A program made the translations under genes and the position numbers. A DNA stretch of 64,000 bases from Halicephalobus mephisto (lineage: Eukaryota; Nematoda; Chromadorea; Rhabditida; Panagrolaimidae): contig SWDT01000094.1 of the NCBI GenBank assembly GCA_009193035.1, forward strand, positions 124,001-188,000, read 5' to 3'. Within the stretch, counting starts at the first letter, position 1, and each line of letters starts with the position of its first letter. The notes beneath the pieces were generated by a model that saw only the letters and a list, made by a program, of their open reading frames with translations, did not search any database and was not told where the DNA came from. Of this stretch, positions 4,411 to 54,395 are shown piece after piece.

Positions 4411-7400
4411 ATGATCATGTTACCAGATAACAACCATCCTGATTACAGGGGTAATACCTACGTCACACCGTCCTACGATGGATATCCGACTTACTATCAG
4501 GTCAGTTTAATCATTTTCTAATTTTTTGAATCTCTAAAAATCCTCTCAACACGAAAATTATAATTTTTTTAAGTTCATATTTAATTTTAAGAAATAATTA
4601 AACTTTACAAATTTTCCATTTTTACTATATTTAAAAAAACAACTTCAATAATAAAATGGATAGTGACTGGAAATAACTTCAATAATAAAATGGATAGTGA
4701 CTGGAAATAATCTTAATAATAAAGTGGATAGTGACTGGAAATAATCTTAATAATAAAGTGGATAGTGACTGAAAATAGTTCTAACTGTAAAGTGGATAGT
4801 GACCGAAAATAATGTTCAGTTTTTAATTTTAGTTACGATTTAGTTTCCTCATTGGAACTGTTTTGGATAATGATTAAATTATAAAAATAGTAAACGCTAT
4901 CCAATCAGTTATTGTAAATTGAATAGTGACTAAAAAATCGATAATTATTAATATTCGTTGCTATTTAAATTTTCATTGAATCTGTTTTTGGATAGTGACT
5001 TTAACAATTTTTACAAAGACCTTGGATAGTATTTAGGATAGTGACTATTATTGGTTATTTCAGTCACTATTAATTTTACTCAAAACGCATTAGAATAGTG
5101 ATTTTAAGAACTTTAATAGTATTCATAGATAGAGTCCAGGATAGTGACAAATGTTATCTCTTCTAGTCACTATCCTAAAAAACTATTTAAACTGTTTTTG
5201 GATAGTGACTGAGAGTTACAACAAGAACCTTGGATAGTGATTGACAACTATGATGAAAATTTTGAGTACTGTTTAATATTGGATAGTGACTGACAATTTC
5301 GATGAGGACTTTGGATAGTGACTAATAGTTTCAATGGAAATTCTGGATAGTGACTGAAAGTTACAACAGGAATCTTGGATAGTGACTGACAATTTCGATG
5401 AGGACTTTGGATAGTGACTGACAATTTTGATGAGGACTTTGGATAGTGACTAGCAACGGCAACGAGGACTTTGGATAGTGTCTACCATTGGATAGTGATT
5501 GGGTTTTTAAAATTAACTTTTTTGACTTGACCTTTGTTCGAATCTCACGGTTCTCCCCTCCCTAACGTGACGAAACAGAAACCCCCAACTCTTGGATGTA
5601 GCTCATGGCAACGAAAACAATATTTCTTTTTCATGGTGATGGCTTCAACGGTTGAAGTCATGGCAACGACGTCTTCTCCATTTTTGGATTGATTTCATCT
5701 TAATGAATCTTTTTGGTTCAGTAAAATAATTTTTATTCTTGGCTGCTTTAAGTTGAAAACCATTTTATTTCAAAAGACTTCCCGCGGTTTTGGCCGGAAC
5801 TCTTGACAGACGATTATTCTGGTTCACCAAGTCTCCAAAATTGTTGACCAACAAGGTCGAAGGCATTTTGGATTGCGTGCCAGTCCTTCCAATTGCTCTC
5901 TAAAATGCCTCCACCTCTGAATTCAAGTTTGAAATCTTCACCAAAAGAACAGAGACCGTCTTCAGACTCTCCTGGTTTCATAAACGTCGTCGATGTCGAA
6001 GACGAAGAGGAACCTTCCAGAACTACTGTCTATGTCTGTTCTAGAAAAAGGATTATGATGGCCCAAGAGGATCCCCAGATGGAGTACGAGTGTTATTACC
6101 CGGTCAAGATGGTAGGAAATGGATTTTGGGAAGTTAGTCACTATTCTGGATACTATCCACTAAGCCCACTGGAACTGTCCAAATCACTATCGAAAACAGC
6201 TCTGACGAAATCCTTGGATAGTGACTGAAATAATCAATCTCAATCACTATTCTAAACACCGAGATTTTGTTGGAATTGTCAAAGTCAATATTTAAAAACA
6301 GTTGCAATCGAAATTGGATAGTGACTAATTTCGGTTTTTTAGTCACTATCCACTAAGTTTACTGCAGCTGTCGAAATCACTATGGAAAACAGCTCTGACG
6401 AAATCCTTGGATAGTGCCGAAAACAACAAATATTAGGCACTATCCAGGGTTTTACTGGAGCTGTCAGTCACTATCCGAAACAACTGTAGTAAAAATTGAA
6501 TAGTGACTGTTTTGGTTGACTAGTCGTCCATTTCAGTCACTATCCAAGTTTCCCATTGGAGCTGTTTTTAAAAACTTATTTTAGAAGTAATTTCGGATAG
6601 TGACTACAACAGTTACAGAAGTTAGTCACTATCCAAAAGCTTTCAGTTTTTATTTTTCTAAATTATTTTAGAAGTAATTTTGCATAGTGAATAAAATAGT
6701 TACGAAAGGTAGTCGCTATCCTTATTTTTGGGATTTGGAAAATCTTAATTTGGATTTTATTCTTTTTAATTTACGTAATTGGTCCCTTTTTAGCACTACC
6801 AAGCCATCCAAAGCCCGGCGTCCTTTCAAGGAAATTACGTGATCCAGACTCAGCAGAACTCGCCCGTCAGTGCCGATGGGGATGACGCCCAATCCGCTCT
6901 GAGCCACACAGCGAGGACTTCACCGGAGACTGTAAGCAAAAACTTCTTTGAGGATTAATTTTTGATTTTTTTAAGTTGGTTTGGTTGTCGGAAAATTACG
7001 AACCTTGTGAGGGGTCTTCTCTGCCCCGTTGTACTCTCTACAACCATTACAAACGTCATTGTGCTGAATGTGGCATTGATCCAGTTAATCCGGCTTCGTT
7101 TGGGAAACTGATTAGATCCGTTTTCCGTGGGTTGAAGACCAGAAGACTAGGGACCAGGGGAAACTCAAAATACCACTATTACGGTATCAGAATCAAGCCA
7201 AATAGTACATTCTTGTTAGAAATGGAAAACGACAGAGGAATGCACCATCCCAGACATCAGTAAGTTTTTATATAGTAAAAAAGTAAAAATTCGTTCAGAA
7301 CAAAACGCCAAAAAATATATATTTGGCGCGAAATTTGAATTTTAAAAAATACTTCTACTTTTTTGGACTTTTTGAGGTTTTTAATTCTTTAATTACCGAA

Positions 7401-10365
7401 TTACAGTACTATTATTAAAAAGGAATAAAGTTGTTAAAAACTTGTATTTAGGACAGGACGCCAAGAATTTTATTTTTGGCGCGAAATTTGAATTTTAAAA
7501 AACAATTTTACTTTTTTGGACTTTTTGATACTCTTGTTAACATATTACAGTACCATTGTTGAAAAAAGTACAAAATTTGTACTTTGAACAGAACGCCAAG
7601 AATTTTATTTTTGGCGCGAAATTCGAATTTTAAAAAAATTTTTAATTTGACTTTTCAGAAGACGGAATGAACTTCATTCTTCTAATCCCTACCATACTCG
7701 AGCAGCTACAGCCGCTGCAACAAACTCCGTGCCGATCCCGACTTCGGATCGCCAACCCGCGATCGTTCCTCCAACCCCCACGGCTCAATCTGGATCCATA
7801 AATAGGTAAATTTATTTTTTTATTTTTTTACCGCAAAATTTTAAATAATCATGTTTCTGAACCTTTGAATTTTTGTCGATACTAATTATTGCCACCCGAC
7901 CGATTAATGGACTTGGATGCGCTTTTGGAAGACCACCTGGCTTGACGGGAGCACCTGTCAGACCCCACACGGAAGCCTCAAAGAATAAAAGCTTTTCTTT
8001 TGAGATTTGAGATGCTTTTTGGCGGATTTAGAGCAGACAAGATAATAACAACCTTTTGAAGAACAAAAAAGAATTTTTTTATTGAGAAAGGAAATGGGGA
8101 ACGTAAAACTAAAAAAACATGGATAGTGATTATTTTTTATGACATTTATTTTAAACAAATCACTATCCGAAATTACTTCTAAAATAATTTAGAAAAATAA
8201 AAACTGAAAGATTTTGGATAGTGACTAACTTCTGTAACTGTTGTAGTCACTATCCGAAATTACTTCTAAAATAAGTTTTTAAAAACAGCTCCAATGGGAA
8301 ACTTGGATAGTGACTGAAATGGACGACTAGTCAACCAAAACAGTCACTATCCAATTTTTACTACAGTTGTTTCGGATAGTGACTGACAGCTACAGTAAAA
8401 CCCTGGATAGTGCCTAATATTTGTTGTTTTCGGCACTATCCAAGGATTTCGTCAGAGCTGTTTTCCATAGTGATTGTCAGGTTCAATAGAAATCCTCAGT
8501 AGTGACTTCAGAAAACGATCGTTGAAAAATTAATTTTTGCATTTTCAGTCATCGTTCTGAATATGCCTCTGGCACTTCTCCTAATGGAGTTTCCGCCACC
8601 AATGGAAGTCTCGAAACCGCTGACCGTGAAGTCACTTCTGAAGTCCTGGATTCTTACTCCGAACTCATGGGTCCCGCCCAGGTCCCGACCATCAACGTAC
8701 CTAATTTCCAGGACCTCGAGCCTTTCTTGGTTACTGTAGACTTGGAACTTTCTCAAGTCAACCACTTCATCGAAGTCTACATCGCCACCTGGGTCGAGAC
8801 GATCCACTTGACGGAGCAGTTGAGATTCAAACTTTTCGAAGAAGTCTGGATCAACTTCTGGCAAAAGGGCAAAGACAGGAAACTGACCCAAGGCCAGTCG
8901 TTCCAGATCGTCTCCTTCGAGCAAATCAGCAAATTCATCGAACATGTAGATCAGCTTTTCTATCAAGCCATGGTGGATATCCTGATGCCGAATGTCCTGA
9001 ATCCTGTGTCTAATTCGAAATACGCTACTACTGTAAGAAATTTCGCCAAACAAGTGCCATCTGTGATGAAGAAGGCCCTCGTGGGGGGGCCCCCGGAGTT
9101 CGTCTCGCAGAAGATGGCCTCTGTCAGGGCCTTCGCTCACAGACTCAAGAGATACACCTCTATCCATCATCTCGCTCATGCAGCTAGAGCTGTTCTGGAT
9201 CAACCAAAACAAATCGATCAAATGTATACTGATTTCTGTAGAATCGACGTCACAAGTATCCAGGAACAAGCCGGATGGGTCTGTGAATGCGATCCACTTT
9301 TGTTCCAATCCATCTTTAACGCTTTCAAATCCAATCTTGAACTTAAACGAAATCTCGAGGGCTGGGCAGACTGGATGGAGGCCGTCGTGGACCAAGCTTT
9401 GGCGAATTCCCACGACAAATCCCTCGAGATCCAAGCCGAAAAATCCAAAAACATGGTTCTTATCTGGAGTTACTTCGGAACTGCTATCATCAGAGATCTC
9501 ACATTACGGTCAGCAGATTCTTTCGGAAGTTTCCATTTGTTAAAAATGTTATTTGATGATTATATTTTCCATCTTGTGGAACTGAGATTAGCCAAAGTCG
9601 CGAACACCCCTGTGGTCTGTTTGTTGTCCAAAAACTGGATCGGAAACTCCCACTTCGACCACACCATCGATCTCGAAGACCAAGTCCAGCCAATCCACAT
9701 GGTCGTTCATGATCCTATTTCCACTTCGACAAACATCCAATACGTCGTGACGTCATCAGATCCGAAATACGTTTTTGCTCCATCGAACGAAATAATAGTG
9801 ACTTCAAACACGGGCAATTCCTACGTAATGGTCCCCAGTGATACTCAATATCATCACCAATTAATCACACCCAATTCCAATCAATTAGAAACCATCGTTT
9901 ACGTCGACGAAAATGGACAACAAACAACTCCTGATAACTCCCAAGCTCAGTACATAGTAATGACAGCTCCTGTCTCAACTCAATCCGAAATCCAGCAAAT
10001 CAGACAAGAAACTAATACTTGTTCGAGAAGAAACAGTTTTGAAGAAAATTCTCCCGAAAAACAAGCCAGAACTGCTGATGATCTGGTCCTTAGTGGAGGT
10101 CAGTAACAAACACGTATTTCAATTTCTAATTTTTAAAAAAAATCCAAAATGAAACTTTTCGATTATATTCAAAATTAAATTTCAAATTAAATTCCATAAT
10201 TAATTAAAAAATTAAATTTTAATTTTAAACTTTTTAATCAACTTTTGTATTAATTTTAAACTTTTTAATCGAATTTTAAATTTCTAATTAATTTCAAAAT
10301 TTTAAATCAACATCTTTTCAGACATCCTCGAAGCTGACCTCGATTCGCCTTGTCAAGAAAAATAA
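4411..10365 (+). CDS. daf-19: RFX-family transcription factor (DAF-19 type)
   Basis: Seven exons by eye: 4411-4500, 5884-6132, 6794-6931, 6976-7259, 7659-7805, 8549-10098 and 10322-10365, in frame at each junction, giving about 833 aa. Exon 4 carries the winged-helix RFX DNA-binding domain, including LPRCTLYNHYKRHC, FGKLIRSVFRGLKTRRLGTR and GNSKYHYYGIRIKP. Exon 6 carries the long conserved B, C and dimerisation regions. RFX proteins bind X-box promoters, and C. elegans DAF-19, the only RFX there, drives ciliary genes. The internal ATG at 5905 could start a shorter isoform, as C. elegans daf-19 has several alternative starts. Exon 4 follows an unusual AAG acceptor after a 44-bp intron. Introns 1, 2 and 5 are filled with GGATAGTGACT repeats, two of them forming a 305-bp inverted repeat. 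The N-terminal exons are the least certain; the domain assignment is firm. Confidence 0.9.
4647..5505 (+). repeat. GGATAGTGACT motif array in RFX intron 1
   Basis: By eye there are about twenty occurrences of GGATAGTGACT or one-mismatch variants such as GAATAGTGACT and GGATAGTGATT, nearly all on the plus strand. They are spaced about 30-60 bp apart with spacers that differ strongly. A few reverse-strand copies (AGTCACTATCC) appear at about 5066 and 5166. Confidence 0.9.
6139..6720. repeat. GGATAGTGACT motif array in RFX intron 2 (left arm of inverted repeat)
   Basis: Forward GGATAGTGACT and reverse AGTCACTATCC copies alternate, making potential hairpins with 20-40 nt loops. A second conserved block, TGGAGCTGTT / AACAGCTCCA, accompanies many copies. 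Bases 6376-6680 form the left arm of a long inverted repeat whose right arm is 8170-8474. Confidence 0.92.
7300..7640. repeat. Three copies of a TTTGGCGCGAAA-containing repeat in RFX intron 4
   Basis: TTTGGCGCGAAA occurs at 7322-7333, 7475-7486 and 7610-7621, each time preceded by an inverted partner (ACGCCAAAA or ACGCCAAGAA), so each copy can form a hairpin. The spacing is 153 and 135 bp. The element matches the E2F consensus TTTSGCGC, although amplification of a neutral repeat explains it equally well. Confidence 0.75.
8118..8500. repeat. GGATAGTGACT motif array in RFX intron 5 (right arm of inverted repeat)
   Basis: Bases 8170-8474 are the reverse complement of 6376-6680 over 305 positions with only a few differences that I can see, for example GAATAGTG against GGATAGTG. 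The arms bracket the exons at 6794-6931, 6976-7259 and 7659-7805. Confidence 0.92.
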
Positions 10366-10599
10366 ACCCCAAATCCCATACTTACTCGATACCGATCTCA
10401 TTTCCCGCCAAAGCCCCAAATGAAAATCTTAAAATTCGGAACAAATTAGTTTTTGTATTCTTAACCCCATATCTGTGCAATCCTGACATACTTTTTATTG
10501 ATAAATACGATAAAGTTACTTGTGAAAATATCCTCAACACCACAAGGGCATCTAATACAAATTTCAACTAATTTAGTTCTTCAGACACGATCATCCAGC

Positions 10600-13390
<2,791 letters not shown>

Positions 13391-13400
13391 AAATCTCGTG

Positions 13401-14007
13401 ATGAGTAATTTCCTCAAACCTGGCTCGATCACGAAACTCGTGTCCAGGTCGTTGTTGCGACCGTCACCGAACATTCCTTACTTCGGCTTGTACAGAACTG
13501 AAGGCGATGTCGTCATGAAAGACGAGTTATTAGTCTCCCAACGACGTTTCAACTACCATCCTGGAGCTAATGTAAGTTTTTTATATGGATTTCGATTAAT
13601 TTAGAATATTTTTATATAGGTTTTAATATAGGTCATTTTTATATAGATTTCAATTAATTTAAAGTATTTTTTATATGGATTTTGATTAATTTAGAATATT
13701 TTTATATAGGTTTTAATATAGGTTATTTTTATATAGATTTCAATCAATTTATAATATTTTCCACACGGATTTTGACTAAATTAGAGTATTTTAGGTGCAT
13801 CATATTCATGACAGAGGTTGCAACTTGTTGAAGGCTGACTGTGACGGAATAGTGATGATTACTCGAGAAAAAGCCGAACTCGATTTAGAAGATCCTCAGA
13901 TGAAGGCAGCTTACCAACAAAAACATCCCGATGGCATCTACAAGCTGACATACAACGTGTTACCTTTGAAAATGTCGCAGAAATTTAAATTAATCGACGA
14001 AGTTTAG
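13401..14007 (+). CDS. mrpl-27: Mitochondrial ribosomal protein bL27m
   Basis: Two exons (13401-13571, 13795-14007) give 127 aa. The protein has a basic N-terminus suited to mitochondrial import and the L27 core: QRRFNYHPGAN continuing into VHHIHDRGCNLLKADCDG, then a lysine/tyrosine-rich end resembling human MRPL27. bL27 contributes to the mitoribosomal large subunit near the peptidyl-transferase centre. The start is ATG at 13401; an upstream GTG is not needed. The 223-bp intron holds a diverged direct duplication of about 100 bp with TTTTATATGGATTT blocks. It is the first gene of a tight same-strand series, with the next gene only 127 bp away. It lacks an obvious upstream 3' splice site, which fits a promoter-proximal operon gene. 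Confidence 0.85.
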
Positions 14008-14134
14008 GGCTTTAGTTTTTTTAGAAAAAATCGTTGAGTTTCAATTTTCGGAAGAATTTCATATATCGGTTTTCTCGGCCGTTTGATTATCTTTGATTTT
14101 TCATTAATTTTACGAGGTTATTGACTTTAGTGCA

Positions 14135-27862: not shown

Positions 27863-28445
27863 TTATCGTCCGAGACGGAGTCCGGCGTTCATAGCGTTCC
27901 CGGCTGAAATCATGGGGTTAGGGTACTTGGAGAGATGGGGTGGTTTTTAATTTTGAGAGTATTTGGAATTTTTATTGAGAAATTTGCTCTAGTGAGTGTT
28001 GTGTTTGATGGAGTAAGTACTTGGGTTTTGAAATATTGAAAAAAGAAATTTTAAGAATTTTGAAATTAAATTTAAAATTTGTTTTGTAAATAATGAAATG
28101 GTACTTACCGATACTGCTTCCGAGACTGGCACCAGGGCTTCCATATCCACCGTATCCTCCGTAACTTTGTCCACCGTATCCACCGTAATTGCTTCCATAT
28201 CCGCCGTATCCACTTCCGTAGTTACCGTATCCACTTCCATAATTACCGTATCCACTTCCGTAGTTACCGTATCCGTAACCTTGTCTGCCGTATCCTCCAT
28301 ATCCTCCTTGGTTACCGTAATAACCATTGGCGTTGGCTCCCATGGAGGTGAAAGGGGTCCGGGCCCCGAGGCCTACTCCAAACTGGGCCGTAGTCGGTCC
28401 GAGGACAGCCAGAAGAAGACAGAAGAAAACGAAGAATTTTATCAT
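27863..28445 (-). CDS. Gly/Tyr-rich secreted peptide A
   Basis: Two exons (28445-28109, 27903-27863) give 125 aa. A signal peptide (MIKFFVFFCLLLAVLGPTTAQ) is followed by FGVGLGARTPF and an array of GYGNYGSG and GGYG units; the short second exon encodes AGNAMNAGLRLGR. The layout resembles C. elegans NLP-29/CNC epidermal antimicrobial peptides, which are also clustered YGGYG peptides, but sequence of this type is too simple to prove homology; a cuticle or adhesive role is equally possible. It is one of four paralogues with the same exon phase and same terminal-exon type. The upstream block near 28500-28550 (TGACGTAGA, then TTTCGGTAAAGA, then GTCATTGATCAAAAAA) is conserved in genes B and C. Confidence 0.85.
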
Positions 28446-28849
28446 TTTTATATTTTTGATGAAATTAAATTTTCGATTTTCTTTTTATAGTCAAATTTTT
28501 GAATGACGTAGACGATATTTCGGTAAAGAAGGTCATTGATCAAAAAAAGTAAAATTTTTTTTATATTTTTTGATTAAAAATGTCCAGTTTATGAAGGTGG
28601 AATGACGTGGAGGTGTGTTTACGACGAAAATCGGAATTTTTGTTTCTGTTCGCTATATTTGATCGAAATTCGCACTGCAAATTAAAACTTTGGGTTATCT
28701 GAACTTTTTTGACGTTGACAAATCAGGTACTAAATCGAGAAGAATATAAACGATCGAATTTGAACTTGATAAAAATGTACGAAATATTGGAAAAATTTTG
28801 TTTTTTAGGAAATTTTTGAGATTTTAGGGAATTTCAGAAGTCTTCAGAA

Positions 28850-31414: not shown

Positions 31415-31965
31415 TTAACGTCCGAGACCGAGTCCGCCACTGAAGGGTATTCCGGCTGAAATAACAAGCATTACGGTAATTTAGAAGACGAAAATGGTTT
31501 TGAATTTTTAAAGTGATTGTGAAATTTTCAGAATTTTTATTCGAAAATTTACTGGATACTGTATTTGATTAAGGACATATTTGCACTTTGAAAATATTAA
31601 AAAAAATAAATTCTGAGAATTTTAAAAAAGTTTATTGAATTTAAGATTTTTTAAACAGTGAAGCGATACTTACCAGCACCCCCTCCGAAACGAGCGTTAG
31701 TACCTCCATATCCTCGGCCACCATAGCTTCGTCCGCTGTATCCACCGTAATTTCGTCCACCATATCCTCCATAGCTTCGTCCGCTGTATCCACCGTAGCC
31801 ACGTCCACTGTATCCTCCATAACCACGATTACCGTAATAACCATTAGCATTAGCTCTCGTGGAGACGACAGGGGTCCGGGCCCCGAGACCCAGTCCGAAC
31901 TGAGGGACAGCCGATCCGAAGACCGCCAGAAGGAGAAGACCGAAGAAAACAATCAACTTTACCAT
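31415..31965 (-). CDS. Gly/Tyr-rich secreted peptide B
   Basis: Two exons (31965-31674, 31455-31415) give 110 aa: a signal peptide (MVKLIVFFGLLLLAVFGSAV) followed by PQFGLGLGARTPVV, then repeats of GYGGYSGRSYGGYGG type with Arg spaced through them, and a terminal exon encoding AGIPFSGGLGLGR. Closest in the window to gene A by the LGARTP and NANGYYGN blocks. The 3' flank (31260-31414) and promoter (32020-32085) match those of the other copies, so the whole transcription unit was duplicated. The cationic, Gly/Tyr-rich composition suits an antimicrobial or cuticle-associated peptide; this is inference. Confidence 0.85.
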
Positions 31966-32585
31966 TTTTGGGTATTTTGATGAAATGAAAACTTTTGATT
32001 TTGTTTTTATAGATGGATTTCCTCATTGACGTAGAAGGTGTTTCGGCAAAGACTTTAATGATCAAAAAAGTTAGATAAACTGTCTGTGCGTTACAAAACA
32101 GAAACATTTCCGATTTATGAAGGTTAAACGACATCGAGGAATGTTTGCGACGGAAATTAACCTATTGATTTATCTTCGCTAGATTACATAGGGAGTAATT
32201 CAGCGAATTGAATCGCAAATAATCTGAATTTTGATGATGTAACTCGGCACGTGACATTCGAAGATTCGGTTTATTAATCTTCATAGTGAAGTTCTTTCAG
32301 CCTCTTTCTATATCCTTAGTGATTTCTGGCGAGTAGTTGATAAATTTTGTAATTTCGTATTTCATCCTTTAGTTTTATCTTCAGAACTTCCCTTGCCATC
32401 ATCCACTTTCCGTATCCATAGTGAGTACAAGTAGAATGATAGAGTTGAAAACAGGATTTTTTTATCTTTCATTTTGGTAGATGTTTTTCATGTCTTTGAA
32501 GCTGAGGCATGCAGCGTCACATCTTCTACGGATCTCTTCGTCAACTTTGGGATCACATATGACAAGTTAACTCAGGTACACGTAC

Positions 32586-33951: not shown

Positions 33952-34409
33952 TCAACGTCCAAAACCGAAGGGCATTCCGACTGAAACAATACAAATTACG
34001 GTATTTTAGAAAAAAAAGGAAAATTTCGAAATACTAAAATTTTCAAATTTTTTACTGAATTTTTACTTGAAAATTTGCTCTAGTGGATACTGTATTTGAT
34101 AGATTAAAACTTCAATTTTGAAAATACTTAAAAAATTAATATTAATGATTTTTGGAAATTTATTTTTTAAACAGCGAAATGATACTTACCACCTCCATAG
34201 TTTTGTCCACCGTATCCACCATAACCTCTTCTACCGTATCCACCGTAACCTCTTCTACCGTATCCACCGTAGCCTCTTCCACCGTATCCACCGTAACCAT
34301 GTCCGCCGTAGAAACTTCCCATGGAGCCGTAGGGACTCATTCCGAACTGAGCCAAAGTTGATCCGAAGACGGCCAGAAGGAGAAGACTGAAGAAAATAAA
34401 TTTCACCAT
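33952..34409 (-). CDS. Gly/Tyr-rich secreted peptide C
   Basis: Two exons (34409-34190, 33980-33952) give 82 aa, the shortest of the four. A signal peptide (MVKFIFFSLLLLAVFGSTLAQ) is followed by FGMSPYGSMGSFYGGHG, then GYGGYGRRGYGGYG repeats with paired arginines and a terminal exon encoding VGMPFGFGR. The RR pairs could be processing sites. The promoter block at about 34465-34515 (TTGACGTTAC, TTTAGTAATGATTGTCATTG, ATCAAAAAAGTAGATAAA) matches genes A and B. Downstream 33820-33951 matches the 3' flanks of the others. Confidence 0.85.
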
Positions 34410-34978
34410 TTTTAGATTTTCTTGATGAAATTACAATGTTCCTTGCTCTTTTTATATTCAATTTTCTCCATAGACATTGACGTTACTTCAGTAATGATTG
34501 TCATTGATCAAAAAAGTAGATAAAAATGTCAGTACGTTACACAACAAAAAATATCCGGTTTATGGACGAACAAAAAGTAAAAAAATGTCCGCGATGAAAG
34601 TTAAACCATTGTAAGGTCTTCCTAAGGCGTGACAGAGGACAATTCTGAGTCGAGTTTGCGATTGAACTGAATTTTTTTGATGAAAAGTGATTTATGAATA
34701 AAAAATATCAGAAATCACATCATTGTTCTGAAAAATGAATTAAGTTCTGAGAAAATTTTCAATATTATTATAAATTTTTAAAAAACTTTGGAAATTTCGA
34801 TTAAATTCAGAAATTCAACTGAGAAAATTGAGTTTCAAGATTTTAAAAATTGAATAATCTTGTCATCTTTCATTCAGAGGTATTCTCAAGGATTTATGAT
34901 ACATCATGATGGTCCAGATTTTTCGTTCTTCGCCTCTGGCCTGGGACACAGATGGAAAAGTGGTAGTGAGCGTTGTTT

Positions 34979-35256
34979 GCCGTTGAAAAAGTCGCGATTT
35001 CAAACCTGTGAACATCTCGTGTCTTGTCCAATCGAGGTATCACTAATAGTGGAAGACGATGGGTACACAACAACTTATGGAAGTGAAAAAGTGGCCCTAA
35101 CTTCGAAAAAGCTACTCCAGGACTTCCAATCCAACGTAGTAAACAGGGTCGGAGAAATATACGGTAACTAAGGTTTTCGAAGACTAATGTTCACATCGAT
35201 GATCGGACACTCTGATCCACTTACACCCATGGCTGCGATGTTCATTGGTTGAATAC
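34979..35256 (+). repeat. 275-bp dispersed repeat, copy 1
   Basis: This block (starting near GTTGAAAAAGTCGCGATTTC and ending GTTCATTGGTTGAATAC) is nearly identical to 60868-61142 in a KCNQ intron. One copy reads open over about 100 codons, but the other has a length difference that breaks that frame, so I treat it as non-coding. On the minus strand GGTTTGAAATC (GGTTCGAAATC in the other copy) looks like a pol III box B. Confidence 0.85.
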
Positions 35257-35593
35257 GGGGAATTTTTTACATTTTTTACTTTCCCTCTGGTTCCAAATGA
35301 CGTCACTGCTGCAAATTGACGTGCAAGTTGTGTTCCTACGCCTCAAGGACCATCGTCCTGAGGGTCTTCTCTTTTTCTGCTACACTTACTGTAGTTTCCG
35401 AAAATACTTTATTTTGAATATTAATTGTTTAATTTTTGAAAATATAAAATAAAAATATTTCATGTATCGTGATATTATTTATTTTAATCAAAAATAAATT
35501 GTTTTTTATTTCGTTTTTCATATATGAAATAATCATGAGTGAAATGATTTAATCAAATTTTAGTTTTTATTGATGGATGAAATAAGATCAGAT

Positions 35594-40980: not shown

Positions 40981-40984
40981 TCCT

Positions 40985-41570
40985 TACTAGTCACTATCCA
41001 GAACTTTATTAGAACTGTTAAAGTCACTATCCAAAAACAGGTCCAGTAAAAGTCGGATAATGACTATTACAATAATAAATTATTTAGTCACTATCCAAAT
41101 TTGTTTTTTCTTTGTTAATTGGATAGTAATTAAAAAATCTAACTTTAGTCACTATCCAAAAACAGATTCAATAAAAAATGGAAAGTGACTATTACAGTAA
41201 TAAATTGACTTATTTAGTCATTATCCAAATTTGGTTTTTTCTTTGTTAATTGGATAGTGATTAAAAAATCTAACTTTAGTCACTATCCAAAAACAGGTTC
41301 AGTAAAAGTCGGATAGTGACTACTACAATGATAAATTATTTAGTCACTATCCAAAACCTCTTTGGAGCTGTCAAAATCACTATTCAAAAAAGGCCCAACA
41401 GAAGTGCTGGATAGTGATTATTTCTGATTATAAACTGCCTTCTTCAGTCACTATCCAGAATCTATATTGAAGCTGTCATTTTCCCAGAAAAAATCGCTCT
41501 AGTGGAATTTTGGATAGTGACTGAAAAAATAATTAATTATGAAATTCAGTCACTATTTTTGTGAAATTTG
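40985..41570. repeat. GGATAGTGACT motif array (intergenic cluster 1)
   Basis: Alternating GGATAGTGACT and AGTCACTATCC copies at roughly 25-50-bp spacing. Direct duplication is visible: the segments around 41100-41190 and 41230-41300 share TTTGTTAATTGGATAGTRATTA and AAAAACAGRTTCARTAAAAG-type spacers. Confidence 0.92.
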
Positions 41571-42569: not shown

Positions 42570-43085
42570 TTAGTCACTATCCGAAGTTAGAAATTCTGCA
42601 GACACATAGTTGGATAGTGACTGAAAATAGTCAATTTTTGTTTTTTTAGTCACTATCCAACTTCTCTATTGGTGCTGTTTTCTGGATAGTAATTTTCGGG
42701 TTTTTAATAGGAAATTTTGACAGTGTCCAGGATAGTGACTAACAGTCTGAAAGGATCTTCAAAATCAGTCACTATCCGATCCGATCGGAACGGTTGTGAA
42801 ATAGCGACTGATAAGTTTAATAAATGATTCTGGATAGTGTCTAAAATAGTGATTAAGATTGACATTGTAGTCACTATCCACTGTTTTTGCTGTAATTATT
42901 TCTGGATAGTAGTTTTGATAATTCTGGTAAAACTTTTGGATAGTGTTTAGAATAGTGATTAAGATTGATTATTTCAGTCACTATCCAAGGATTTCGTCAG
43001 AGCTATTTTCGATAGTGATTTGGACAGTTCCAGTGGACTTAGTGGATAGTATCCAGAATAGTGACTGGGATTGATCATTTCAGTT
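42570..43085. repeat. GGATAGTGACT motif array (intergenic cluster 2)
   Basis: Forward and reverse copies of the 11-bp motif with the accompanying TTGGTGCTGTTTTCTGG and CAGAGCTATTTTCGATAGTG blocks. Some spacer text near 42970-43060 closely resembles that at 6150-6240 in the RFX intron, so the clusters share ancestry beyond the core motif. Confidence 0.9.
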
Positions 43086-43870: not shown

Positions 43871-43877
43871 TGGAATT

Positions 43878-44225: not shown

Positions 44226-44285
44226 GATGCGATTACTTCTTGACTGACTGCCCGTCTCGAATTGTTCGATTTATTACTCCTTAAG

Positions 44286-46421
44286 ATGGTCGGGAACGGT
44301 TTATCTTTCATAATATTTTTTATTTTCGTTCAAACTTCTGCAGTTTTATCTGATAAAGTAAGTTTTTTAAAATACTTAAAAAAATTAAGTTTTTCAATTT
44401 CGGTCTTGACACGAACGTTAAAATTGCTTTTTTAAATCATTTTTTTAAATTTAATAAATAAATGAAATTTTAAAAAATTAAAAATTTTAATTTTAAAAAA
44501 ATATAAAAATTTTTAATTTTTAATGAAATTTTTTAAAATTTTTTTTTATTATTTTTATTGAAAATTTTTGTATTTTTCAGACAGAATTTTGTCGAAATTA
44601 CATCACTTGTTTGGAAAAATTGGAAGAAAAACAACGAGAATGCAGAGACGACGCTTCTCAAAGAAGACAGTTGAAGACAGCCTTGACTGGAGAGGACGAC
44701 GACGATGATGATGACGAGGATCCTCTCAAGTGCTCCAGAAGACAGAACCATGAACTGCACGATGAACTGAGTGGTCTCCATTTGAGGAAGACGGAGGTCA
44801 TCAGGGACTGCGTCAAGAAGAATCTGGAGACTGCTGTCGTCCACGGAACCGAAGAAAATGTAAGTTATTCGAAACCCACGGATACTGTTTACTTCAGTCA
44901 CCGTCCAAAATTGTTATTAATTTTCAAAATCACTATTAAAGACAGCCATGATAGGGAATAGGATAGTGACTAAAATGGATAGCTTCAATCAACATTACAG
45001 ACACTATCCATTGTGCCTATTGGAGCTGTTAATCACTATCAAAAAACTAAAAATCGGATAGTGACTAGAATAGATAGTTTCAGTCACTATCCAAGATTAT
45101 TATTGCTTTCTAAAATTATTGTCGAAAACTAATAAAAATAGAATAGTGATTTAAATAACCGTGTTTAGTCACTATCCAAGATTATTATCAAAAGAGCTTT
45201 AATAAAATAGAATAGTGATTAGAATAGCTTCAGTCACTATCCAAAATTACTATTCAAAACAGCTTTAATCAGGAAGTTGGATAGTGACTAGAATAAATAG
45301 CTTCAGTCATTTTCCAAAATTATTAAAAGAACAGCTTTAGTCAGAAAATTGCACTGTAATTAAAAGTGACAACTTCGGTCTGTGTTCGCTGTTCTCATTA
45401 GAGTTGTCAAAGCCATTATCCAAAAACAGCTCCGATCAGAAAATGGAACAGCAATTAGCAGCTAAAAGTTCAGTCATCTTCGGAAATTTCCTAGAGTTGT
45501 TAAAACCATTATCCAAAGTGTTCCAGTAGGGAAATTCAATAGTGACTGGAACAAACAACATCAGTCACTATTCCGCATAACTTTTAAACCCCTCTAAAAA
45601 CCGTTCTGTGAAAATTAGATAGTGACTAGAAAACACAACTTCAGTCACTATTCAAAATCACTGGTTTTTAAAACTACGCTTTAAGAAAAACAGCTCTGAC
45701 GAAAGCATTGGATAGTGACTAGAAAACACAACTTTAGTCACTATTCAAAACTATTATCGAAGAGCAGCTCCCCTTGAAAGAATCAGATAGTGATTGGGAA
45801 GATGTAAATTCAGTCACTATCCTGGACATTACTGAAGATTTTCTCACAACCAGTCACTATCCAAAATCAAGATCAAATAAGAATTTCATAATTTTATAAG
45901 AACAGTCACTACTTATGTCCCTTTCATAATCAGTCACTACTTATGTCCCTTCCATAATCAGTCACTATCCTATGTCCCTTTCATAATCAGTCACTATTCT
46001 ATACTCCTTCCATAATCAGTCACTATCTAAGAACAGCTCCAATAAGCAAATAGTGAACGTTTTATTTTAATCATTATATACTTATCAAAGATCAACCCTT
46101 ATCTCGACTCAAATCCGTGTCCTCGAAGTTAATCCTTTTTTTCAGCAAAAGAAATGCCGTCGATCATTTGAAAAAATAATCTCATTCAAACCTAAAAAAA
46201 CCAAAAAAAGAGGTGGAAAAAAACAACGAAAACTGAACCAAAAAAAAGCAGAATTAAAATGCCGAAAAGAAAGAAAAATGCTCCATCGAAAATGTACAAA
46301 AATCGCTACTTGTTGTAGTTTGTCCGATCTGTGTCATCAGAAAACATCCTCCATCGTCAGCCAAATCATCGAAATTAAAACGACTTTGAAGCAAAACCGC
46401 CAGAAATGCAAATCTCAGTAG
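44286..46421 (+). CDS. Secreted Cys-rich, highly charged protein
   Basis: Three exons (44286-44357, 44581-44859, 46146-46421) give 208 aa. Exon 1 is almost exactly a signal peptide (VGNGLSFIIFFIFVQTSAVL). Exon 2 carries FCRNYITCLEKLEEKQREC, then a run of Asp/Glu (GEDDDDDDDEDP) and a second cysteine-bearing helix (VIRDCVKKNLETAV). Exon 3 begins QKKCRRSFEKI, continues with a very basic linker (KPKKTKKRGGKKQRKLNQKK) and ends with further Cys (LKCRKERKMLHRKC, TCCSLSDLCHQ). The spaced Cys and amphipathic segments suggest a disulfide-stabilised helical secreted protein, and the basic linker could be protease-cleaved. I do not recognise the family. Intron 2 (1286 bp) is filled with GGATAGTGACT repeats. 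Confidence 0.75.
44890..46070. repeat. GGATAGTGACT motif array in an intron (largest cluster)
   Basis: Dozens of forward and reverse motif copies over about 1.2 kb. At 45900-46025 the array becomes short direct repeats, AGTCACTATTCTATACTCC with TTCCATAATC, of about 30 bp. The TTGGAGCTGTTAATC and AACAGCTCCAATAAG blocks accompany many copies. Confidence 0.93.
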
Positions 46422-46564
46422 ACACCGTAACCCAACTCTCAACTCATCATTCCACTGCCAAATCTTTATAATCATGGCCAAACTCGCAATTTCTCTGTCC
46501 AGAGAAAAATAAAATCTTGCGCTTAAAAATAATAAAAACTTGAAATGAGTGAATTACCGTAAAA

Positions 46565-48116: not shown

Positions 48117-48739
48117 GATGACACCTGAAGAAGACAAATAAGAAAAAACAGGAACTAGGAAAAATCGGACGAAATGTAACCAGCCCGGAAAACTCGAGGC
48201 AAATCTTTCTCGCCTTCCAGTAGCGGCACCATCACAGACGTCCCCCATCCCCCAAATACCACTCCCCAAAATACCGAACAAAAACGGAAAAATTTCCAAA
48301 TTCCATATATCGAGAAAAATTTCAAACATTATCCACCTTGGCCATTTTACAAAAGGAAATAATGGTCCGTATCCAGTGCCGCCAAAAAATGACCAGTGCG
48401 AGTCGCGCGACACTGAAGATAAACCAAACAAAAATGTCTGTCTGTCACTTCGGCATAATGAATTGTTGGGTATTGCTGTTCTCCCAGAGAAATCAGGTCG
48501 GCACAGGACCTTTGAACTCAAGTGGACACGCGCAACGACAGGAGGTCCGGTCCTCGTTTCGCTGGCCGTTTCTCAAGGAAAACGGTGATAATGGTCTGCG
48601 AATCGTCCCCAGGCTTATGCACTTCCGCCTCAAAGGAAAAACTGATCTAAAGAGTCAATAAAGGAAAACAAAAGCAACTGCGCGGCGCATCTGGCTGCAA
48701 TTTGAATTTTCAGTAGCTCCGCCGAAAGACACGGTCATC

Positions 48740-48757
48740 AAAATTGGCGCCAATTTT
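48740..48757. promoter_or_regulatory. Perfect 18-bp palindrome with E2F-like core
   Basis: AAAATTGGCGCCAATTTT is its own reverse complement. The GGCGCC core with flanking T/A tracts resembles an E2F/DP site. It lies about 620 bp upstream of the coiled-coil paralogue 2 start. Confidence 0.4.
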
Positions 48758-49147
48758 ATTTTAAAATAAAAAACAAAAGTTTCCAAATTTAAAAATCACA
48801 TTTAAAAAAACATTCATATATAAAAAAGTTCAAATTTCCTTGTACAAAAACTTTAAACTCCCATATATAACTGTTTCCTAATTTCCATATAAAAATCAAA
48901 AATTTTAATTTTCATAAAACGAAGAAAAACAAATTTTGAATCAATCGTAAAATTAAAAAATCAAAGTCCTAAAACGACCGGATGTTTTCGAATCCCCGAG
49001 TTCCCGCCACCTGGTGTTCCCTTCGAGACCCGGTCGGCACCCACATCTTAGAATTTCTTTATCTAGCCAGTAAATCAAAATAATGGATTGTAACCTTATG
49101 ATACCTAACACCATAGGCAAGAATTAACTGCAGTTTGACTTTTACCC

Positions 49148-51241
49148 TTAGGGAATGCGAAGGTCGGGGGTACTTTTGAATCTTCTCGAGAGTTTTGAGT
49201 CCGATACTTGTTTCTTCTTCTCTTGGATCTGGCTTGTCACAACTCGATTGAACTTCACGAGCCTCGGATCATCAGTTTGCGTTTTCTGGCTGGCAGTCGG
49301 AGTTTTTTCGGCACTTTTGTTTTCTGGCGAAGAATGGGCCGAAGTGGACACTCTCAGGTTCCCACTGTTGCTGCTGATATCAAAAGACTGATTAGAGATA
49401 CAATTCGTCGCTAAAAACAAAATTATTAAATCAAAAGTAACAATTTTAAAAGATTAAATTACAAAGAAAACTAAAAAAATTGAAAATCATAATTCTCAAA
49501 AAATATTAAATTATAGAAAATTAAAAATCATAATTTTAAAAAAATATTAAATTAAAAAAAATTGAAAATCATAATTCTTAAAAAATATTAAATTAAAAAA
49601 AATTGAAAATCATAATTCTCAAAAAATATTAAATTATAAAAAATTGAAAATCATAATTCTTAAAAAATATTAAATTACAAAAAATGTTAATTTTTGAAAT
49701 AGGAGAAAAATTAATTTTGATAAAAATTAAATTTCTCAACATGTTGAAGTGAATAAAACCGAAAAAGTTAAATTTAATCTTCAAAATTAATTTTAATTTT
49801 AACTTCACAAAAACTCACGAGGTCTGCTGGGACTTGTTTCGTCGTTGTGTCTGAAAATCTTGACCTCGTCTTGAGTCTCCTCCGTCAGACTCATTCCCGG
49901 CAATTTGGCGTTACTCGCCGTAGTCGTTGCTGACATGAAAGCTAAGGATTCTCCCGAGCCGTCCCCCATTGCCGGAGGGGGTCTGAATCCTCCATCCATT
50001 TGTCCAGGAACCAGAGTGGAGTTCCCAGTGTTAGTGTTGTTCAACTGAAGCCTCGGATTGGGCGGGGTACTGAAGTTGAAGGGCATCCTTGGCTGGTAAA
50101 TGAAAGACTGGTGCTGGTAGGGGAAGTAGGTAGAATGGTAGCTCTGGTACGACGTCACTTCCTAAAATCGTCCAAAATTGATAATTTTCGGTTTTTTCGA
50201 GTTCTGGGGGATTTTAAATATTTTCAAGTTTCCGAAATGAGTCAATCTTCCGGAGATTTGGTTCAGATAGGTATTAATTAGGACAACTTCTAACTTACGT
50301 TTTCCAAAACTGCGATTCTTTGCTTCATTTTCAAGTTTTCTTCCCTGAGAACCCTGATTTCGTGGGCGTACTTCCTCCTTGACCGAGTGAATTCATCTAG
50401 TTGGATTTCCAGCGCCGTTTTCTCCCTCTCCAGCCTCCTTTTCTCATCAATGGCCTCAGCAAGACTCGTTTTGTACTTCTTAATCTGCTTCATGGCGGCT
50501 TCAAGTTGATCTTCGTATTCGTAGGGGTTGTTTTCGGAGTCGCTGTCTCTGTAGTCCCGTCGTCGTCTTCTTTGATTGCCCCTTTTGTGGTTGGGTGAGT
50601 ACGCTGAGTGTTTCGACCTCCGTCTGGCTTGGCTGGAGGATTGGAATTCCGATTGAAAAGATCTTTCCTGAGGCAAATCAGTCGAACTAGAGGGGGATTC
50701 GTTCGGGGAATATTCATTTATCATACGAGGAGGAAGAGATCGAGGACCCTAAAGTACGGGAATCAGATAAGATCTAAGAAAAAACATCCTGGAAAAACAA
50801 AAATAGTGATTACGAAATCCGCTCCTTCAACTTCAATGACTCACAGACAGAAACTGAAACAGTTCATGCAGTTTTAATGAACAATGACATTTAGACGTAA
50901 ATATTTTTAAACAAGTTCAAACTTAAAGTTGAAGGTGGAATTTTAGGCCATCGCTTTCATATATGAAAATCGCCCAAAATGACGTCATTTCGACTTAACA
51001 CTGATAGTCAACCAACCTTGTGTCTCTGGGGTTGGATCCCATAATGGTAAGGGGCGGTGGGGTTCACCAACGGGTCATCCTCGTAGATGACCGTCTGGAC
51101 CCGTCTTCTCAGCGAAGACTTCAAGCCCGAACCGGCCCCTTCGGCGAAAGTCTCCGCTGGCCTGAAGGAGCCCCTCCTGGAGAAGTCCTCGACATCCCGT
51201 TTCTTGTTCGGCTTGAAGATCCTGTTGAGAAATCCGGCCAT
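49148..51241 (-). CDS. Coiled-coil protein, paralogue 1
   Basis: Four exons (51241-51017, 50748-50299, 50161-49819, 49410-49148) give 426 aa. It begins MAGFLNRIFKPNKKRD, similar in character to the MKSFRRIFKSKSKD start of paralogue 2. Exon 2 has a basic region (RRRSKHSAYSPNHKRGNQRR) followed by a long coiled coil (YEDQLEAAMKQIKKYKTSLA, EAIDEKRRLEREKTALEIQL, EIRVLREENLKMKQRIAVLE). Exons 3-4 are Pro/Ser/Thr-rich and end KSTPDLRIP. The two genes look like an old tandem duplication on the minus strand. A TTTCCAG acceptor precedes the ATG by four bases. The function is not recognised. Intron 3 holds a 45-50-bp A/T-rich tandem repeat (49440-49700). Confidence 0.75.
49440..49700. repeat. Tandem repeat, about 48-bp AT-rich unit, 5 copies
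   Basis: AAAATTGAAAATCATAATTC followed by TYAAAAAATATTAAATTA repeats within intron 3 of coiled-coil paralogue 1. Non-coding. Confidence 0.88.
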
Positions 51242-51587
51242 CGGACTGGAAACAAAAGGATAAAAATAAATTGATTCCTTTGGACCGCGCGAGAGAAAAG
51301 GCCCGGCAAACAAAAGGTGCAAAACGGCTTATCGGGCAAAACAATTTTCCTCACTAATTTTACATCGTATAAAAAACAACAAAAATCAATGTAAATTTAC
51401 TTGTAAATTTAAACTCATATAAAATTTCAACATAATGAAGGACATAGTGTAGTTTCTTGGAGGATCTGTGTGTGGATTGGTTGGGATTCCTTTTTCAGAA
51501 CTAGAATGCCGCCATTTCCTGCTCGAGTGGCGGTTCCCGATCAAAGCAATGTCGCATCCGAGTCTAATCGGGGGCTGCGGGTCGCCG

Positions 51588-51602
51588 TTTTGCGCGCCAA
51601 AA
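51588..51602. promoter_or_regulatory. E2F-like site between divergent genes
   Basis: TTTTGCGCGCCAAAA is close to palindromic and fits the E2F consensus on both strands. It lies about 350 bp upstream of coiled-coil paralogue 1 (minus) and about 240 bp upstream of the homeobox gene (plus). Confidence 0.5.
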
Positions 51603-51845
51603 ACTCCAAAAGACAACTGCCGCCCTTGCCGCCAACGACAAACACGACCAGGTCCGTCCGACGCCAGTTGACTGCCGCTTTGAGGATTCGTGTTCGAGGG
51701 ATATCCCGTCTCTGAGGGCACATCAACACACGTGAAGATCTAAGGACCTTCCGACGTTAAAAAAGAATAAAATATGTAAATTCACAAACCTAGAAGGAAC
51801 AATCATGTCAGAAATGGACTTCGGAAATCCGAAGCTCAGTCAGTC

Positions 51846-54395
51846 ATGGAATCCGCGGGACAGATGAAGGTTAACAGAAACGGTGGAGAGTACTGTAACG
51901 GGAAGGCCCTGAGCCAGGACAAACGAGAGAAGATCGTCGAGAAGTGGCTCGGCGGACAGAAGTAAGTTTTTCTTCGAAAATAATCGGATCAAGCCTAGGG
52001 AGTCTTGCGGGAAATTCGGATATCTTCTGTTGTCTTGTTGAAAATTTCGAAAAGTTGCAAAGTTTTCCGGAAATGCTAGGAACATTGTAGGATGTTCTGA
52101 AATCACGGAGAACTTCAACGAAGCTTCTGGAATCTTGAAAAATGTGAGAGAGAATTCTGAAATCTAGTGGAATCTCGTCGAGGTTTCTAGAATCTTAAAG
52201 GAGGAAAGAAATTTCAAAGATCTTCAGCAATATGATGGATTCTGAAATCTAGTGGAATATCATCTAGGTTTCTGAAGTCTTGAAGAACTTCAAATTTTCT
52301 AAAATCTAAAAATTCCGAAATCTTCGAGAATTTTATTGAGACTTCTGGAGCTTCTGAGACTCTCGTGAAAGATTTCCTGAGCATATGCGTCTCAGAAGAA
52401 TGTTCTAAAATCCAGTGCAGTCTTATCGAGGCTTGTGGAACTTCTGAAGACTTGGTGGAAATTTGTAGTCTTCCTGAGTCCGTTGGAGGACTTTTGCAAA
52501 GACTTCTGAAGCTTTCATATAGCTCATCGAAGTTTTTAAAAATCTTAAGAATCTTCTGCAACTTTCTGTTTCGAAATAAAAATTCTAAAATTTACGAAAA
52601 AATCAAAAAATTCTCACCCGGACACTGAAAAAATACTTTTTTAAAATTTCCATAGTATTGTGATTTGTTTTTAAATTTATTTTTTCAGCGTAACTTCGAT
52701 CGCGAAGGATTTAAAAATCACACATGGAGTTGTTTCGAAAATCGTCAGACAATACAAGGCCACTAAGTCCGTTTTGCCAAAAACCGTAAGTTTTTTATTC
52801 TCGAAAATAAGCAATTTTTAAATACAAAAATACTATAATGGAGATAATTATGATAGTGATTGGGAAAGAAGGTGATAAGCCTCATCCGGTCACTATCCAT
52901 TGTTTCTACTGGAGCTGTCAAAACTGTCATTCATAAGCAGCTCCAATGAAAGGAAGGGATAGTGATTGACAAGTTCAAGTTTGAGCCTCCTAGTGAACAC
53001 TATCCGAGATTCTTATTGAAATAAAAATCATTCAAAAAACAGCTCTAATGAAAGTTGGATAGTGACTAGAATTGTCAATTTTAGTTGTCGTTGCAGACAC
53101 TATCCCTTGTTTTTACTGCAGCTGTTAGTCATTCAAAAAACAACTCCAATGAAAGTTGGATAGTGACTAGAATTGTCAATTTTGGTTGTCGTTGTAGACA
53201 CTATCTCTTGTTTTTACTGCACCTGTTAGTCATTCAAAAAACAGCTCCAATGAAACTGAAAGATAATAATCAGAACTTTGCAAATACGGTACCCTTTAGT
53301 AATAATTTACATTTTAGCGTTCTTCAACTTCGTTGAAAAGTAAAATCAAAAAAACTCCGAAAATCGGGTTTTCCATGGAGGAAATCCTGGCCCCAACTCC
53401 TCCTCAACAGAGAGCAATGTTTTCAAAGTATCAAATCGAAGTCTTGACTGACTTCTACGACAGAAACAAATATCCGTCAGAAGAAGAGAAGAAAACGCTC
53501 TCGATAGAAACTGGCCTAAACATCGAACAAGTTACTGTAGGTTTATTTTTTTCGAATTTTTAAATGGGTTAAAATAAGAAAAAAACAAATTTTTTGGAAG
53601 TTTTGAATTCCCACGAAAAGGGCGAGAATGGCAAAAGTGGAAAAAATGGTAAATCTGGTAATTCGGTTGAAGTCGACTCGCTCCGTCTCCTCTCGCTTTT
53701 TTTTTACCTAAATTTTAAAAGGTTTAACGAATTCTAGAGATTTCTATCCAGATATTTTCGTAAAAATTTAATTTTCACACTAATATAAATTTTTGAATTC
53801 CCACGAAAAGGGCGAGAATGGCAAAAGTGGAAAAAGTGGTAAATCTGGTAATTCGGTCGAAGTCGACTCGCTCCGTTTCCTCTCGCTTTTTCCCGCTACC
53901 TAAATTCTTAAATTTCTGATTAAATTCTAGAAATTTTTACCGGAACAATTACCCAAAACACTTGTTATGAAAATTCAAAGATTATGATTTTTCCAGACTT
54001 GGTTCAACAACAGAAGATGCAGAGTAAAAAAGAGACTTTCGAAATCCTCGAGTACTTCTGACAGCAGACCGAATTCTACAGTATCCATCACATCAATTGG
54101 TTCTCTGACTTCGACAGGAACAGAAGGGGATCAAGTTCAGGTGACTTCTGGAGATCAAGGAGGTCAAAGAGGTCAAGGAGGTCAAGGAGGTCAAGGAGGT
54201 CAAGTGGAAAGTTATCCTCAGATGCCCGTCCTCCAGAATACGTTTCAAAATTTATCTTATTTCCCCGTGGTAAACCCGCTAAATCCCTTCTTCCCTATGT
54301 CATTTGTGAACTGTTCCGTCCATCAACAAGTCCAACAACAGCCAGAGAGGATTTTAGAAATGATTAATAATTTTTTTGATCAATTCAAAAAATAA
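51846..54395 (+). CDS. PAX-like protein: PAI half-paired domain plus homeodomain
   Basis: Four exons (51846-51961, 52689-52785, 53318-53536, 53997-54395) give 276 aa. Residues about 8-65 resemble the PAI half of a paired domain: NRNGGEYCNGKALSQDKREK, then NVTSIAKDLKITHGVVSKIV and RQYKATKSV, compared with LGGVFVNGRPL ... DISRQLRVSHGCVSKIL ... RYYETGS in PAX. No RED half follows. A divergent homeodomain comes at about 104-162: QRAMFSKYQIEVLTDFYDRN, then KYPSEEEKKTLSIETGL and TTWFNNRRCRVKKR. Position 50 is Asn (WFNNRR) where PAX proteins have Ser. The tail has a short GGQRGQGGQGGQGGQ run. Full PAX proteins have PAI and RED, and C. elegans NPAX proteins have PAI without a homeodomain, so this pairing is unusual. 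An upstream ATG at 51805 opens a 20-codon overlapping frame, a possible uORF. Confidence 0.82.
51990..52600. repeat. TTCTGAAATCT / GGAATCT-rich degenerate array in homeobox intron 1
   Basis: Diverged 30-40-bp units around CTTCTGGAATCTTGAAAAAT and TTCTGAAATCTAGTGGAATC. It is similar in character to the TTCCAGAATCTGG array in the KCNQ intron at 61830-62230. Non-coding. Confidence 0.6.
52855..53225. repeat. GGATAGTGACT motif array in homeobox intron 2
   Basis: Includes a direct duplication of about 110 bp (53025-53120 against 53135-53230) sharing AATGAAAGTTGGATAGTGAC, TAGAATTGTCAATTTTAGTT, GTCGTTGCAGACACTATC and CTTGTTTTTACTGCAGCTGT. The composite unit CACTATCC...CTGGAGCTGTCAAA...CAGCTCCAATG...GGATAGTGA is clearest here. 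Confidence 0.9.
53600..53935 (+). repeat. Dispersed repeat in homeobox intron 3, shared with TTC26 intron 3
   Basis: Two tandem copies about 190 bp apart. Each carries AAAGGGCGAGAATGGCAAAA, GTGGTAAATCTGGTAATTCG and GTCGACTCGCTCCGT, then ACCTAAATT. They match 22780-23100 closely. Confidence 0.88.

Follow-up and report, generated by a model that had tools for sequence, protein, structure and literature searches.

The pairing centres of Caenorhabditis elegans are based on 12-bp motifs bound by HIM-8, ZIM-1, ZIM-2 and ZIM-3, and they present a short motif in many dispersed copies that concentrate in part of the genome. Foldback (FB-type) transposons carry inverted arms built from short subrepeats. 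Oriented and spaced motif pairs are also found in thousands of copies in Caenorhabditis: the m1m2 pairs of CERP2/CELE2, which are bound by HIM-17 and lie inside MITEs with inverted repeats (PMC9757741, in the parts available). In Meloidogyne, a 19-bp box is conserved in short tandem-repeat arrays of five divergent families and has been suggested to recruit CenH3 (PMC9673304, in the parts available). Here, we compare these systems to arrays of a 13-bp motif, TTGGATAGTGACT, in the nematode Halicephalobus mephisto. These arrays may well be the sites of a putative protein that would pair on facing copies of the motif and would mark or tether chromosome regions.

The sequence-only reading of this locus had proposed an 11-bp motif repeated on both strands in seven clusters. 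We searched for the 11-mer GGATAGTGACT in the window (the whole stretch of DNA analysed, 64,000 nt) and identified 84 copies with at most one mismatch, against a mean of 0.38 and a maximum of 2 copies in 100 shuffled sequences. All 84 copies fall in the seven clusters, as claimed. The clusters and the features beside them are:

4658..5500, no strand assigned: cluster 1, 20 copies (at most 1 mismatch), mainly tandem units (34 and 32 bp) in a single orientation
6136..6721, no strand assigned: cluster 2, 11 copies in both orientations, located upstream of the open frame with the RFX DNA-binding domain
6375..6690, minus strand: left arm of an inverted repeat, 316 bp, 98.4% identity to 8160-8475
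6952..7260, plus strand: RFX DNA-binding open frame (PF02257), E 7.4e-35, between clusters 2 and 3
8121..8415, no strand assigned: cluster 3, 8 copies in both orientations, flanked by two RFX open frames
8160..8475, plus strand: right arm of the inverted repeat, 316 bp, 98.4% identity to 6375-6690
8284..8295, plus strand: exact AACAGCTCCAAT linker block, with further exact copies starting at 6555 (minus), 45019 (minus), 46032 (plus) and 53240 (plus)
8526..10106, plus strand: open frame carrying the following RFX domain (BCD_RFX, PF25340), E 6.9e-84
40989..41522, no strand assigned: cluster 4, 14 copies, with a 131-bp higher-order unit
42572..43066, no strand assigned: cluster 5, 9 copies; 42943-43066 is an inverted copy of 6136-6259 (97.6%)
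44961..46028, no strand assigned: cluster 6, 17 copies, the terminal part made of same-strand 29-bp units
52888..53168, no strand assigned: cluster 7, 5 copies, with a 101-bp unit that includes the AACAGCTCCAAT linker

The clusters had been placed in introns and between genes. We checked this placement for clusters 2 and 3: cluster 3 lies between RFX open frames of the same strand, and cluster 2 sits upstream of the first frame. The intronic or intergenic position of the remaining five clusters is that of the sequence-only reading. The RFX gene adjoins a GAPDH gene (8526-11996). In C. elegans, daf-19 lies next to gpd-4, presumably the same RFX/GAPDH pair, which would represent conserved microsynteny. 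The protein obtained by joining two GAPDH exons matches Halicephalobus sp. NKZ332 at 93%, the nearest named nematode among the 120 proteins listed of 7996. The 316-bp inverted repeat could form a long pre-mRNA duplex around the RFX exon, favouring skipping or circular RNA.

The window contains other repeats as well, with 94 tandem-repeat rows (overlapping) whose units range from about 8 to 160 bp, one being of 286 bp, and many of these are unrelated to the motif. A 34-bp tandem repeat at 2329-2611 presents GCCAAA...TTTGGC arms together with AATAAGTGAC, which is faintly core-like. A dispersed repeat of about 291 bp is found at 34977-35270 and 60863-61153 (96% identity within the window), with 17 further matches elsewhere at 69-80%, large scaffolds included. 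Finally, repeats of the GGXTACGGXGG type occur at 27972-28484, 31651-32022 and 34204-34310, the first two stretches being part of open frames for glycine-tyrosine-rich (YGGYG) proteins.

We extended the search to an assembly of 331 scaffolds and 59.9 Mb, in which the shortest scaffold among the lengths retrieved is C27 (10,315 bases). The published assembly of H. mephisto comprises 880 scaffolds and 61.4 Mb, and short scaffolds are probably absent from the set that we searched. Exact copies of GGATAGTGACT number 1651 + 1559 (3,210 in total) genome-wide, against 5 + 5 for the reversed word, which confirms the motif at the scale of the genome. A literature search for the motif, as two words, gave six papers that contain one of them, with titles on unrelated subjects.

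The motif was characterized in a sample of 161 kb of motif-rich stretches from 20 loci, picked for the motif, plus the window. We found 799 copies with at most two mismatches, arranged in 56 clusters with a median span of 534.5 bp and a median of 12.5 copies per cluster, and the reversed word presented 3 matches inside the same clusters. The profile was built from 792 of these copies, the other 7 lying too near the end of a locus, and was weighted to about 275 distinct contexts. It reads TTGGATAGTGACT[A/G]A with a steep drop at both edges: the core columns hold 0.96-2.17 bits and the flanks mostly less than 0.1 bit, except for TT before and [A/G]A after. Mismatches at letters 1 to 11 number 111, 132, 1, 22, 6, 30, 6, 35, 122, 101 and 59 over the 799 copies. 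Inner letters are thus nearly invariant (1, 6 and 6 mismatches at letters 3, 5 and 7) and outer letters are loose (132 at letter 2, 122 at letter 9 and 101 at letter 10). Among the 11-mers of the sampled loci with at least 10 occurrences and at least three G or C, GGATAGTGACT ranks first by number of distinct contexts (124, on 11 scaffolds), and the runner-up outside the core family of the filter, GGATAGTGTCC (19 contexts), is itself a core variant; since the loci were chosen for the motif, these ranks do not describe a random sample of the genome. Such over-represented arrays of a short motif are a feature shared with pairing centres of the C. elegans type.

The core had also been described as conserved over spacers that are not. 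This is what we observed between scaffolds, where the flanks are near background; within a cluster or a scaffold, however, spacers are often common to several copies. Indeed, BLAST matches were found for 104 of 170 pairs of clusters on the same scaffold and for 227 of 1208 pairs on different scaffolds. Divergence was analyzed on 1306 local alignments, each 100 bp or longer, that join segments of the same or of different clusters; these alignments overlap, are not independent and were seeded on short words. When spacers diverge by at least 30%, the core diverges by 12-19%, and with every alignment pooled the divergence is 3-5% at letters 3, 5 and 7, compared with about 32% for the flanks. In the spacer classes 5-10, 10-15 and 15-20%, the core diverges 0.56, 0.69 and 0.79 times as much as the spacer, and this ratio falls beyond 20% spacer divergence (0.67, 0.63, 0.57, 0.42 and 0.28). 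The low-divergence classes correspond to recently duplicated arrays, whose core changes at 0.56-0.79 times the rate of the spacers, so constraint on each copy is weak and single sites appear replaceable. Because copies are recognized by their core and the alignments are word-seeded and overlapping, part of this conservation reflects ascertainment, which may account for the conservation of the outer letters but is unlikely to cause the difference at letters 3, 5 and 7. Judged from these alignments, the core is kept over long times and its individual copies are loosely held. A conserved box within divergent repeat families is also the feature described for the holocentromere repeats of Meloidogyne.

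Neighbouring copies lie predominantly on opposite strands (399 of 555; mean of 279 and maximum of 317 in shuffles). The sequence-only reading had noted such facing copies and seen them as potential hairpins, and it is only the first part of this proposal that our results support. A hairpin or a cruciform, whether of DNA or of RNA, might be the selected object, as most neighbours are on opposite strands and could pair, but compensatory changes between the arms are absent: facing pairs present 16 double changes to the same letter against 20.2 in shuffles, and back-to-back pairs 16 matched double changes against 14.9. Without covariation of the arms, a hairpin is unlikely to be the conserved object. 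Moreover, the gaps center on 26 and 16 bp rather than on a short loop. We consider it very improbable that selection acts on such a structure.

The spacing of facing copies is strongly uneven. Genome-wide, exact facing pairs number 54 at 14-17 bp (13.5 pairs per base of gap), 31 at 18-23 bp (5.2), 163 at 24-27 bp (40.8), 4 at 28-35 bp (0.5), 11 at 36-39 bp (2.8) and 28 at 40-48 bp (3.1), and the reversed-word control is zero in every class from 14 to 48 bp. The 18-23 bp class is therefore populated, which is a caveat on a spacing in two classes. With its 11 pairs, a third helical class at 36-39 bp was dropped. Back-to-back exact pairs are found at 21-25 bp (120) and at 26-32 bp (66). After de-duplicating the gap sequences of the loci and the window at 60% identity, 134 distinct facing-gap sequences were retained, with 56 at 24-27 bp and 26 at 14-17 bp. 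The distinct spacers of exactly 26 bp number 26 and come from 9 scaffolds. Their inner identity is 35.6%, compared with 29.6% when shuffled, which leaves a slight similarity between almost unrelated sequences, and their common length may partly reflect shared descent. The abrupt fall in pair number beyond 27 bp, with spacers of this kind, points to a limit set by geometry. Facing gaps show a periodicity whose best period is 11.2 bp (R 0.49, against at most 0.30 after jittering), whereas no clear periodicity was detected for back-to-back gaps (R 0.27; jittered maximum 0.29). The two main classes, 14-17 and 24-27 bp, are set about one DNA turn apart, from which we infer dimeric binding. Motif pairs with a preferred spacing are also a feature of MITEs of the CERP2/CELE2 type; pairs of two different motifs, such as m1 and m2, were not found among the pairs counted, in which one motif faces itself.

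Two minor classes of gaps differ from this pattern. On visual inspection, most pairs at 40-48 bp enclose a variant site together with the AACAGCTCCAAT block, and thus look like a composite subfamily. Facing pairs with a gap of 6 bp (28 pairs) each associate one standard core with one variant and are found only on scaffolds C4 and C25. The variant core carries a T at letter 9 (GGATAGTGT..; loci L010 and L019-L021, on C4 and C25), and its presence in all 28 pairs indicates that it depends on context or subfamily. The gap-6 and gap-40 classes look like one subfamily by descent.

A second block, AACAGCTCCAAT, had been described as travelling with the motif. It presents 323 exact copies genome-wide against 7 for the control, and in the loci and the window 71 of 84 copies with at most one mismatch lie within 40 bp of a core, where the background is 14.8% of bases. 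The association is thus real, but the block is the linker of one motif subfamily. It forms the central part of a linker of about 23 bp, with typical distances of 3-4 bp to the core on one side and 8-9 bp to the core on the other. Among linkers of 20-26 bp, 70 of 132 hold AACAGCTCCAAT with at most three mismatches; these are located on C4 (16 of 24), C22 (18 of 28), C25 (26 of 48) and C103 (10 of 12), and none was found in the 20 such linkers of C9, C12, C122 and C128.

We further analyzed how the arrays are copied, using pairs of array segments on the same scaffold with at least 90% identity over at least 100 bp and at least 800 bp apart, which leaves out closer tandem units. Eleven of these pairs are inverted and 4 are direct, and all six pairs with at least 96% identity are inverted, at distances of 2-37 kb. 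The 316-bp pair of the window brackets the RFX DNA-binding open frame. Such recent local duplication, the thousands of copies and the weak constraint in recent copies would all be expected if the arrays were remnants of mobile elements (a MITE, a foldback element or a Helitron-borne minisatellite), whose core would be a transposase-binding or amplification-prone subrepeat without host function. The repeats of H. mephisto leave room for this: RepeatMasker leaves 87.3% of interspersed repeats unclassified, and helitron models match 44.3% of them (nhmmer, E 1e-2), according to the available parts of PMC6872716.

However, no marks of an element were seen at the borders of the arrays. No 9-mer is common to more than 5 of 101 array edges (0-40 bp), and those common to at least 3 edges belong to the linker block or to the variant core. 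Direct matches between the left and right flanks of the same array average 6.29 letters, compared with 6.65 for mispaired flanks (48 arrays, 60 bp on each side), a comparison weakened by inexact array borders and by the decay of old target duplications. In 100 flanks starting 40 bp outside the arrays, nothing was found in common between separate arrays: of the seven flank pairs that match, six are overlaps of neighbouring arrays over the same sequence and in the seventh the two sides of a single array match over 33 bp (88%). Common ends such as those of CERP2/CELE2-like MITEs were thus not found across these edges and outer flanks. When two mismatches are allowed, 64 of 101 edges have an outermost core that points inward, which would favor an element, but with at most one mismatch this is the case for 55 of 104 edges, which is even; this is a mild bias at most, and consistent inverted outer arms were not found. 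The arrays therefore resemble FB-type transposons in their inverted arms of short subrepeats and differ from them in lacking a consistent outer orientation and common ends, and in the host open frame that lies between the arms at 6.4 and 8.2 kb, the one case checked. Plain decay would not be expected to yield the drop above the 27-bp gap. Overall, no unit with common ends emerged whose consensus could explain the pattern, and we regard an origin as mobile-element remnants as somewhat unlikely.

The distribution over scaffolds was analyzed on C1-C116 (21.7 Mb, 36% of the assembly), where 139 exact spaced pairs merged at 2 kb yield 59 loci. These loci lie on 22 of the 116 scaffolds, which total 4.07 Mb, compared with 12.7 Mb when loci are placed at random by length. 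None of the 59 is found on the seven scaffolds longer than 400 kb (7.14 Mb), where 19.4 were expected. The sequence-only reading had named a uniform genomic spread, with a core decaying as fast as the spacers, as refuting its proposal; for exact spaced pairs, a uniform spread was rejected at the level of scaffolds. The 291-bp repeat was used as a small control: 4 of its 9 matches on C1-C116, leaving out the two copies on C22, are located on the seven large scaffolds. The busiest scaffold carries 9 pair loci, which is within chance (simulated 95th percentile of 11), and a smaller earlier test, with every exact copy of C1-C11, was only borderline (P 0.036). C1 contains 26 exact copies and a cluster of 22 copies yet no exact spaced pair, so pairs understate arrays and the lack of pairs on large scaffolds does not prove a lack of arrays. 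The large scaffold C8 carries two single copies. In addition, scaffolds end at repeats, so their length is not independent of repeat density.

This distribution bears on the possibility that the motif recruits CenH3 as a holocentromere box, in the manner suggested for Meloidogyne. H. mephisto and M. hapla both belong to clade IV (table of PMC9071541, in the part available), and the Meloidogyne repeats likewise combine a short conserved box, divergent repeat families and dispersed short arrays (PMC9673304, in the parts available), a likeness of description. In contrast to those short tandem-repeat arrays, the arrays of H. mephisto run on two strands with a preferred spacing. Seven large scaffolds without an exact spaced pair would not be expected of a holocentromere either, unless its boxes were grouped in domains. 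This function appears quite unlikely.

Alternatively, the copies could be host cis-regulatory sites spread by transposons and acting on nearby genes, similar to the HIM-17-bound m1m2 pairs of CERP2/CELE2. Paired motifs, a preferred spacing and thousands of copies follow the same logic (PMC9757741, in the parts available), and a transcription factor gene carries two arrays within or next to its introns. However, we observed arrays of many copies (at loci picked for the motif) instead of isolated promoter pairs, the exact pairs are restricted to few of the scaffolds examined, and the arrays consist of a single motif without common ends instead of two motifs inside MITEs. HIM-17 itself was reported as not found in H. 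mephisto (PMC12354626, in the parts available). We therefore consider regulation of nearby genes unlikely.

The arrays can also be compared with pairing centres. The HIM-8 motif begins with TTGG, with AGTG two letters on, and its resemblance to TTGGATAGTGACT is a lead. Like pairing centres, the arrays are concentrated in part of the genome, here at the level of scaffolds and for exact pairs only. They differ by the preferred spacing of facing pairs, which is not mentioned for pairing centres in the passages available. Homologs of HIM-8/ZIM are reported in many Clade V nematodes (PMC8455136), and HIM-8 was reported as not found in H. mephisto by BLASTp (PMC12354626). H. mephisto, which belongs to clade IV, is parthenogenetic, and this counts against a role similar to pairing, although five bivalents have been reported (PMC12354626, in the parts available). 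DMC1, MND1 and HOP2 were reported as lost in all sequenced nematodes of clade IV (PMC8455136), but a BLAST match to DMC1 is listed in H. mephisto (PMC12354626; both in the parts available). It is improbable, in our view, that H. mephisto has rebuilt pairing centres as such on a new code, in which TTGGATAGTGACT copies face each other over 24-27 or 14-17 bp, bind a dimer unrelated to HIM-8/ZIM, gather in chromosome domains and persist in an asexual worm with five bivalents. Pairing centres, holocentromere boxes and transposon-spread regulatory sites each share parts of their anatomy with the arrays. We assign the arrays to none of these classes, whose defining features would be a position at chromosome ends, a bound protein, CenH3 and the ends of an element, the last of these not found at the edges and flanks compared.

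The motif had been interpreted as a binding site in preference to a decaying satellite. Its sharp edges, its position-specific tolerance, the spacing of pairs and the lack of covariation between arms favor this interpretation, although the weak constraint on single copies does not. The most economical account is probably that of a sequence-specific and probably dimeric putative protein, binding arrays that would mark chromosome domains. The binding site is supported by the features of the sequence, and a role in pairing is plausible by analogy. Under this account, the putative protein would bind the motif and sit as a dimer on facing copies at 14-17 or 24-27 bp. The arrays would act on chromosome behaviour and not on single genes, with the protein possibly marking or tethering certain regions of chromosomes in the way of the pairing-centre proteins of C. 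elegans. The arrays would have spread by local duplication and by gene conversion between nearby arrays, and selection would keep enough good sites per region rather than each copy.

The spacing of the copies helps to separate a binding site from the decay of a satellite without any data beyond the DNA itself. A short and abundant motif with preferred spacings is also a direct bait for the binding protein and a probe for imaging. Finally, homolog recognition in a nematode in which HIM-8 has not been detected is a question on which this motif bears.
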